Source of the DNA: Gemmatimonadaceae bacterium
GTDB taxonomy: Bacteria; Latescibacterota; UBA2968; UBA8231
Direction: 5' to 3'
Length of the DNA stretch: 30,728 nt
Assembly: GCA_002726335.1 (NCBI GenBank)
Contig: PBSR01000028.1
Location: 1-30,728 of the forward strand
In this document: positions 26,140-27,423 of the stretch, in pieces
Numbering within the stretch: the first letter of the stretch is position 1
How the letters are laid out: each line of letters starts with the position of its first letter
The notes under the pieces: model-generated
What the model was told of the DNA's origin: nothing
The model's database searches: none
What the model saw: the letters and a program-made list of their open reading frames with translations, nothing else
Program-made: the position numbers and the translations under genes

Positions 26140-27423
26140 TCACCTGCCCGACTCCTGGCGCATCTTCCGTTCGGTTTCATCCGGTGTGCAGCCCTGCTGT
26201 ACAGCCAGTGCTCCTGTGATGACGGCCTGATAGCGCTCTCTTGATTCCTGCAGCATTTCATCCATCTGTGATTCCAGAGCGACTATGATCTGGTCGCGGG
26301 CATCACCGGCGGCAATACGTTCCAGGCCCAGCCGCAGCGGCGGATAGGTGGCTTTGTCGACAAGTGCGTGTAGAGCGTGGAGCCCCACCTGACGCCTCAG
26401 GTAGGCCATGTCGGTGAAGAGTGAGGCGATCTCGCCGTAGTCCATCCCGGATAGATCTTCCCCGAGACGCTGCTCCAGTTGGGCCTGAATCTCCGGAGCA
26501 GGTTTCTGTTCCGGGCGCTGTGCTCCTTGCACTGGCGCCCGGTGGTCGACGAAGAACGTCAGCAGTTTATGGTGGACGATACGAGGGTTGTCGCCGGAGT
26601 GGATGGACATCAATGCTTCGATGACCATCCTGATGCGAGTGTCCAGTCCGCCCAGGATGGCCATTTCGAGTCGGGTCTTCAACAGGTCCTCGATCAAGGC
26701 CGGTTCGGTGCCGTCGACCATGAGGAACAGTGATTCTCTGACAAAGGGCGTGGCTTCTACTTCATCGAGTGCGACGATTCCTTCCCGCCGGGCAAGATCG
26801 CTGATCTGCCGCCACAGCAGGATGATCTCGTCGAGGGTCATCGCCTCGAGCGGCCGGGTGGCCAGGCCGTCGAAGAAATTCTTCACAGATGGTCTGTGAT
26901 CCGGAGCAGGGGGGTTGCTGTTTTCGGGCCACGCCAACTGGCCGTTGGCGGCCAAACCAGCGGCATTCAGTATGAGCCGTCGCCGTGAGTCATCTAGCTC
27001 CTCATCGGTTCGAGGCCCTAGGAAACCTGTCTCCTCTTCGAAATATCCTCGTACGCGGTCCGACACACAATTGAGGAAGCGGGATCGCAGCTGGGCGCTC
27101 GCCTGCGACAGGCACACGACGATGTCCAGCTGGTCCGACTCACGCAGCAGGACAACCAGATCACGGTTGCTGCATCCCGCCAACCGCTCCAGATCCAGAG
27201 TGGATACAGCCCGAAGCCAGTTCCAGTCCTTGAAACCGTGCTGGCAGGCGATGACGTGCTGGGCCTCGGTGAGGACAATCTCGCTCTGCGAGTCCTCGTT
27301 GAGGCGGGGCAGGTGCTGACGTACGAGAGCGATGGCCTGATCCTCACCGGACCGATAGGCGCCGAACAGATCCTTGGCCTGCTTCCTGTACTGTTCGAGA
27401 TTGTGCTTGGGCTGTGCGGACAT
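26140..27423 (-). CDS. soluble FliG_C-like/tandem MotA-cytoplasmic-domain fusion protein
   Basis: The 427-residue product has no membrane helix. Residues about 8-71 match the leader of bacterial ankyrin-repeat proteins (KQAKDLFGAYRSGE, AQHVIACQHGFKDWNWL), though no ankyrin repeats follow. Residues about 84-164 read like the FliG C-terminal domain (RDLVVLLRESDQLDIVVCL, LRSRFLNCVSDRV, AAGLAANGQLAW). Residues about 195-290 follow MotA: MTLDEI, LARREGIVALD and LMVDGTEPALIEDLL, then jumping straight to the MotA tail RIRMVIEALMSIHSG and PRIVHHKLLTF, so both MotA membrane helices between are missing. Residues about 328-422 repeat the same pattern (LRRQVGLHALHALV, RYQAVITGALAVQQG). AAAGGAG lies about 9 nt before the ATG. 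No flagellar gene is near. It is convergent with the enolase-superfamily gene. Confidence 0.8.
   Translation of the reverse strand: MSAQPKHNLEQYRKQAKDLFGAYRSGEDQAIALVRQHLPRLNEDSQSEIVLTEAQHVIACQHGFKDWNWLRAVSTLDLERLAGCSNRDLVVLLRESDQLDIVVCLSQASAQLRSRFLNCVSDRVRGYFEEETGFLGPRTDEELDDSRRRLILNAAGLAANGQLAWPENSNPPAPDHRPSVKNFFDGLATRPLEAMTLDEIILLWRQISDLARREGIVALDEVEATPFVRESLFLMVDGTEPALIEDLLKTRLEMAILGGLDTRIRMVIEALMSIHSGDNPRIVHHKLLTFFVDHRAPVQGAQRPEQKPAPEIQAQLEQRLGEDLSGMDYGEIASLFTDMAYLRRQVGLHALHALVDKATYPPLRLGLERIAAGDARDQIIVALESQMDEMLQESRERYQAVITGALAVQQGCTPDETERKMRQESGR

Follow-up and report, generated by a model that had tools for sequence, protein, structure and literature searches.

A predicted soluble fusion of the FliG C-terminal domain with two MotA cytoplasmic modules in a Gemmatimonadaceae bacterium

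In the flagellar motor, the cytoplasmic region of MotA touches the C-terminal domain of FliG (FliG_C) to drive the rotor, and the N-terminal and middle domains of FliG normally connect the protein to FliF and FliM. The FliG_C-MotA grip is central to torque generation and is hard to study, since the stator is a membrane complex. PMC12505986 gives the contacts as MotA R90 with FliG D288/D289 and MotA E98 with FliG R281, and a preprint structure has two adjacent MotA domains gripping one FliG_C (1:2). An engineered C. sporogenes MotA-FliG_C fusion (PMC11302681) ties the two contact surfaces in one chain; the PDB entry 8ucs, which bears the title MotAB stator bound to FliG, probably represents this complex. 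Two cytoplasmic proteins, the flagellar brake YcgR (PMC10140304) and the clutch EpsE (PMC3000366), control the motor at the MotA-FliG interface and are PilZ-domain or glycosyltransferase-like, with neither a FliG nor a MotA domain. Here we describe a gene of a Gemmatimonadaceae bacterium (GCA_002726335.1, contig PBSR01000028.1, positions 1 to 30,728; this whole analysed stretch of 30,728 nucleotides is called the window) whose 427-residue product joins FliG_C to two MotA cytoplasmic modules. A preliminary description, made from the sequence alone, had proposed this architecture and knew of no described protein sharing it; none was found in the literature searched.

As judged from sequence comparisons, the protein is a FliG_C domain followed by two MotA modules from which the membrane helices have been excised (Table 1). 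Pfam recognises FliG_C directly (PF01706, E 5.6e-11, residues 77-163, above the curated cut-off), close to residues 84-164 where it had been placed, and E130-E131 occupy the D288-D289 positions, as expected from the acidic EE that had been noted in place of the FliG DD. The NCBIfam fliG match (TIGR00207) is confined to profile positions 246-325 of 338, and neither the FliG N-terminal and middle domains nor a PilZ domain gave a Pfam match in the protein at E up to 1. MotA is missed by the single-sequence Pfam search, and the NCBIfam MotA models match two or three stretches at 1e-13 to 7e-8, far below their whole-protein cut-offs. PDB MotA chains match at 3.3e-5 in two blocks, residues 199-252 (MotA 79-135) and 262-291 (MotA 219-248). 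Because this match skips MotA 136-218, about 83 MotA residues (transmembrane helices TM3 and TM4 and the loop between them) are replaced by 9. The family profile aligns with the MotA profile over 103 columns (probability 99.9, E 3.8e-31), omitting 74 MotA residues, 73 of them in a single gap at the TM3-TM4 position, and the profile of module 1 matches that of module 2 (probability 99.5, E 2.1e-22), each E value referring to a single profile comparison. A MotA cytoplasmic region with excised helices, suggested at residues 195-290, and a second copy of it, suggested at 328-422, are thus both recovered, the latter at 328-427.

Both TM1-TM2 and TM3-TM4 are absent from the MotA modules. The window protein has no transmembrane stretch (best 19-residue hydropathy mean 1.1 vs a threshold of 1.6), and on the same scale four ordinary MotA proteins show three to four transmembrane peaks each; the window protein is predicted to be water-soluble. 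Among its relatives, P0025 and P0036 barely exceed the threshold at one place each, and P0033 does so at its start. The AlphaFold2 model of the whole chain is confident (predicted local distance difference test, pLDDT, 89.9), except for part of the linker (block mean 67 at residues 171-180). Together with structure comparison it backs both the FliG_C and the MotA folds, FliG_C superposing on a known FliG structure with a root-mean-square deviation of 1.1 over 93 residues. One continuous helix, residues 241-275, is predicted across the splice point at 253-261, and the model suggests that the two MotA modules exchange halves. Hence domain matches, hydropathy, fold and retained charges (see following) agree with the proposal that stator and rotor contact surfaces stand in one chain lacking ion channel and membrane helices. 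The predicted half exchange, the N-terminal domain and the membrane-bound fusions presented below go beyond the preliminary description.

A family of homologues emerged when 5.8 billion proteins were searched, with 476 matches at E <= 0.001, 120 of them listed. The alignment of the target with 26 relatives of full layout (30-64% identity to the target) has 21 invariant columns. Where a source is named, it is Candidatus Latescibacteria/Latescibacterota or Gemmatimonadetes, and some relatives carry the automatic names "flagellar motor component MotA" or "FliG C-terminal domain-containing protein". Layout variants include proteins with one MotA module (P0030, P0031, P0034), the same without the N-terminal domain (P0039, P0041, P0049), and proteins with doubled FliG_C (P0016, P0020). 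In the two-module relatives P0033 and P0035 another start replaces the N-terminal domain; that of P0033 is hydrophobic and signal- or anchor-like, which would place a FliG_C-MotA protein outside the cytoplasm.

The contact residues were counted in 34 two-module proteins (the 27 aligned, target included, and 7 more), which are not independent events because the sequences are related. R281 of FliG is kept in all 34; position 289 is also acidic in 34/34, and position 288 in 22/34. In module 1 the R90 position holds R or K in 30 proteins and the E98 position is acidic in 28. In module 2, R90 is present in 34/34 and is the sole invariant column among residues 318-427, while a Glu equivalent to E98 remains in only 4/34. 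The fusion thus holds FliG_C and MotA modules at 1:2, one module keeping both charges and the other only Arg90, a ratio that would fit the grip of the preprint structure. A decaying or chance gene fusion without function might be suspected from the strong divergence of module 2, from the deviating end of P0002, and from the broken or rearranged copies of two genomes in the phylum survey described below (G007, one open reading frame, or ORF, with stops; G064, rearranged ORFs only). Decay is made very improbable by the selective retention of the contact residues, by the confident predicted fold, and by a single layout in 27 aligned proteins that has persisted at the identities given above with 21 invariant columns.

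Compared with MotA/PomA (PDB 8brd, 8ucs, 6ysf), the fusion has the cytoplasmic region of the torque interface, R90 and E98 having their equivalents in module 1, and shares the VDGTEP and SGDNP motifs; the C-terminal half of module 1 is identical at 19 of 26 aligned residues to the MotA of genome G001, a genome of the same phylum. It differs in the missing membrane helices, TM3-TM4 being replaced by at most about 9 residues, and in a MotA part that is duplicated, lies behind FliG_C and has no MotB gene beside it, the neighbours belonging to other Pfam families. None was seen by reading in the loci of relatives either, where no MotB profile was run. With FliG (PDB 1lkv, 3usy) it shares the C-terminal torque domain, including R281 and D/E289, whereas the N-terminal and middle domains are not detected, R297 is lost and MotA modules follow FliG_C. 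The engineered fusion of PMC11302681 has the same two surfaces in one chain but keeps the membrane helices and MotB, of which the window protein has neither; in the latter, FliG_C leads and two MotA modules follow.

Nature also provides, in the same phylum, fusions with the domain order of that engineered protein, namely membrane MotA-FliG_C proteins (P0042-P0045, P0047, P0048, P0050-P0058; L094/L132). Of the 15 found among the matches listed, 13 were compared: all 13 have lost the channel proline P173, yet R90 persists in 12 of them and E98 in 13, whereas P173 is present in 11/11 chosen ordinary MotA. No MotB-like gene was seen beside the membrane fusion L132. The loss of P173 with the contact residues kept implies that two architectures of opposite domain order have shed channel features and retained the contact.

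In a scan of GTDB genomes (177 stretches, the best 80 taken as loci), full-layout fusions were found in L001-L003, with FliG_C doubled in L002 and L003. Of 15 further loci read, 13 hold ordinary MotA or FliG and one, L004, a short form with a single module; L006 is ambiguous owing to its broken frame. We then considered 64 genomes of the phylum of G001 at E <= 1e-20; their completeness is not given, and the counts ignore kinship. FliG_C and MotA parts are joined in one ORF in G001, G002, G003, G004 and G062, and a match with stops in G061, which just reaches the MotA part, was left out of the fusion count. Flagellin_N is found in 30/64 genomes, including all of these as well as G064 and G007, and FlhA in 25/64, including G001, G002, G003, G062, G007 and G061. 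In this survey the fusion was found only in genomes with flagellin-type genes. Of the roles that the preliminary description had guessed at (switch, clamp, scaffold or competing inhibitor), this leans towards those linked to the motor. We tentatively prefer, as an idea that falls somewhat short of probable, that the protein is an accessory factor at the interface of the flagellar motor: a clamp that could act as clutch, brake or decoy.

The main rival, and a real possibility, is a repurposed docking pair, in which the FliG_C-MotA contact would stay inside the family, whether within a chain, between chains or with the FliG-FecR and membrane MotA-FliG_C proteins, and would serve a scaffold or signalling assembly off the motor. 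One FliG_C and two MotA heads per chain make a self-complementary set, and as many as 19 FliG_C matches occur in a genome. On its own, P0030 with its single module seems incapable of closing a MotA head, which would imply oligomers. Residues 1-76 form a separate mobile domain (about 80 residues) that in the same phylum also precedes ankyrin repeats (L119, L125), AAA+ sequences (L124, L126), these partners being named by reading, and other proteins (L120, L121, L123). Some of these occurrences (L119-L121, L123-L128) are in genomes without Flagellin_N matches, and 11 of the 40 members of the family set show a weak Glyoxalase_8 Pfam match to it (FliG_C matches in 38/40). Against the docking pair, all 28 of the 64 genomes with FliG_C also have Flagellin_N, and at the survey threshold no fusion turned up in genomes lacking Flagellin_N.

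The accessory reading can be put into steps. The charged contact of the normal motor (E98-R281, R90-D288/289) would serve as a grip and not for torque, FliG_C being clamped by MotA heads of its own chain or of a partner chain. The clamp might open, perhaps via the N-terminal domain, so that the free FliG_C could bind stators or the free heads the rotor FliG. The outcome would be a soluble clutch, brake or decoy resembling YcgR and EpsE, which are likewise stand-alone cytoplasmic proteins that act at the MotA-FliG interface, a role only proposed for the window protein, but built from copies of the motor's own surfaces. The most specific version is doubtful as a whole: a self-complementary soluble clamp of the torque interface, with the channel removed and the head doubled with half exchange and tied to FliG_C, so that one FliG_C would sit in two heads, one offering mainly Glu98 and the other Arg90, and, once freed, would brake or disengage the motor.

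Several observations weigh against this accessory role. By eye, R281 is retained also where FliG_C occurs apart from MotA, for instance in the FliG-FecR proteins, and its conservation is therefore not specific to the fusion. The FliG K264 position holds K or R in only 20/34 proteins, R297 is retained in 1/34, and 8/13 membrane fusions still have P222, the second channel proline. The predicted chain should hold its two heads apart, so that only a dimer could form a two-jaw grip. FlhA has no match in G004 and G064, two of the six host genomes, and the flagellar counts refer to genomes other than the window's own. In the five loci read, the soluble fusions lie outside flagellar operons, the only flagellar link being at a tandem pair of soluble fusions of 456 and 447 residues (L082:3161-6098), which has a full-length FliG paralogue some 4 kb away.

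G001 carries the 19 FliG_C matches mentioned above and a MotA-to-FlhA flagellar cluster (L131; gene names by reading, FlhA by profile). By reading, the FliG_C matches fall into roughly eight FliG paralogues plus two partial copies; one fusion of FliM with FliG and one membrane MotA-FliG_C protein; four soluble fusions, of which one is short; two proteins with FliG_C alone; and one FliG-FecR protein. The FliM-FliG fusion is a single reading frame of 924 residues (L086:1580-4351), its FliM part being assigned by reading. Because of the paralogues and the FliM-FliG fusion of this one genome read in detail, an unusual C-ring is conceivable, and the soluble fusion might be a structural part of such an unusual motor, either inside the C-ring or as a permanent additional ring or bearing that lies between it and the stators. 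This is improbable given the lack of a match to the FliG N-terminal or middle domain, the normal joints to FliF and FliM, the location of the genes away from flagellar operons at the loci read, and the presence of the fusion in just 5-6 of the 30 phylum genomes with Flagellin_N.

Zorya-type defence systems use ZorA, a MotA-like protein, and MotA and ZorA are generally akin. Beyond this general kinship nothing in the data points to defence, and such a function is highly improbable: PADLOC models matched no family in the window protein (P0001), P0018 or P0030, the window protein lacks membrane helices, and no defence genes were recognised by reading next to the fusion in the window or in the relatives' loci.

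A natural helix-free chain with both surfaces would make the FliG_C-MotA contact directly measurable and, with R281, D/E289 and R90 as the charges retained, would hint at those that count in the absence of an ion channel. Such a chain would further offer a clean example of a membrane protein turned soluble in evolution by helix removal, and may reveal a new flagellar control in bacteria whose rotor-protein copies are unusually numerous. If the clamp exists, it would form with the P173-less membrane fusions a new class of motor regulators made from the motor's own contact surfaces.

Table 1. Coordinates of the fusion gene, its parts and its neighbours in the window
Feature	Position	Strand	Remarks
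Fusion gene, FliG_C and two MotA cytoplasmic modules, no membrane helices	26140..27423	minus	ORF of 427 amino acids, ATG start
Ribosome-binding site AAGGAG, 7 bases 5' of ATG	27431..27436	minus	read directly in the sequence
N-terminal mobile domain, residues 1-76	27196..27423	minus	also in other proteins of the phylum
FliG_C domain, residues 77-163	26935..27195	minus	R123 = E. coli FliG R281, E130/E131 = D288/D289
Linker, residues 164-192	26848..26934	minus	partly of low confidence in the structure model
MotA cytoplasmic module 1, residues 193-292	26548..26847	minus	R212 = MotA R90, D220 = E98
Splice point, residues 253-261, site of missing MotA TM3-TM4	26641..26667	minus	MotA 136-218 skipped
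MotA cytoplasmic module 2, residues 328-427	26143..26442	minus	diverged copy, R344 = R90
Mandelate racemase-like gene, convergent neighbour	24938-26107	plus	Pfam
2-hydroxyacid dehydrogenase-like gene, divergent neighbour	27612-28559	plus	Pfam

The fusion gene is probably transcribed by itself, as it is flanked by one convergent and one divergent gene; a scan with the sigma-70 consensus gave no promoter. Elsewhere, comparison by eye indicates that the FliG_C-only proteins of locus L092:3983-5132, one of which has the N-terminal domain twice, have lost the R281 equivalent. The window itself has a second FliG_C gene at 20190-21850 on the plus strand (PF01706, E 1.1e-21), which by reading consists of FliG_C, an acidic stretch, one transmembrane helix and a FecR-like end. 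This copy looks frame-broken or misread, because its two parts are in different frames, in contrast to the relative L093, a single ORF of 591 residues. A sigma-factor-like gene (22194-23045) adjoins it.
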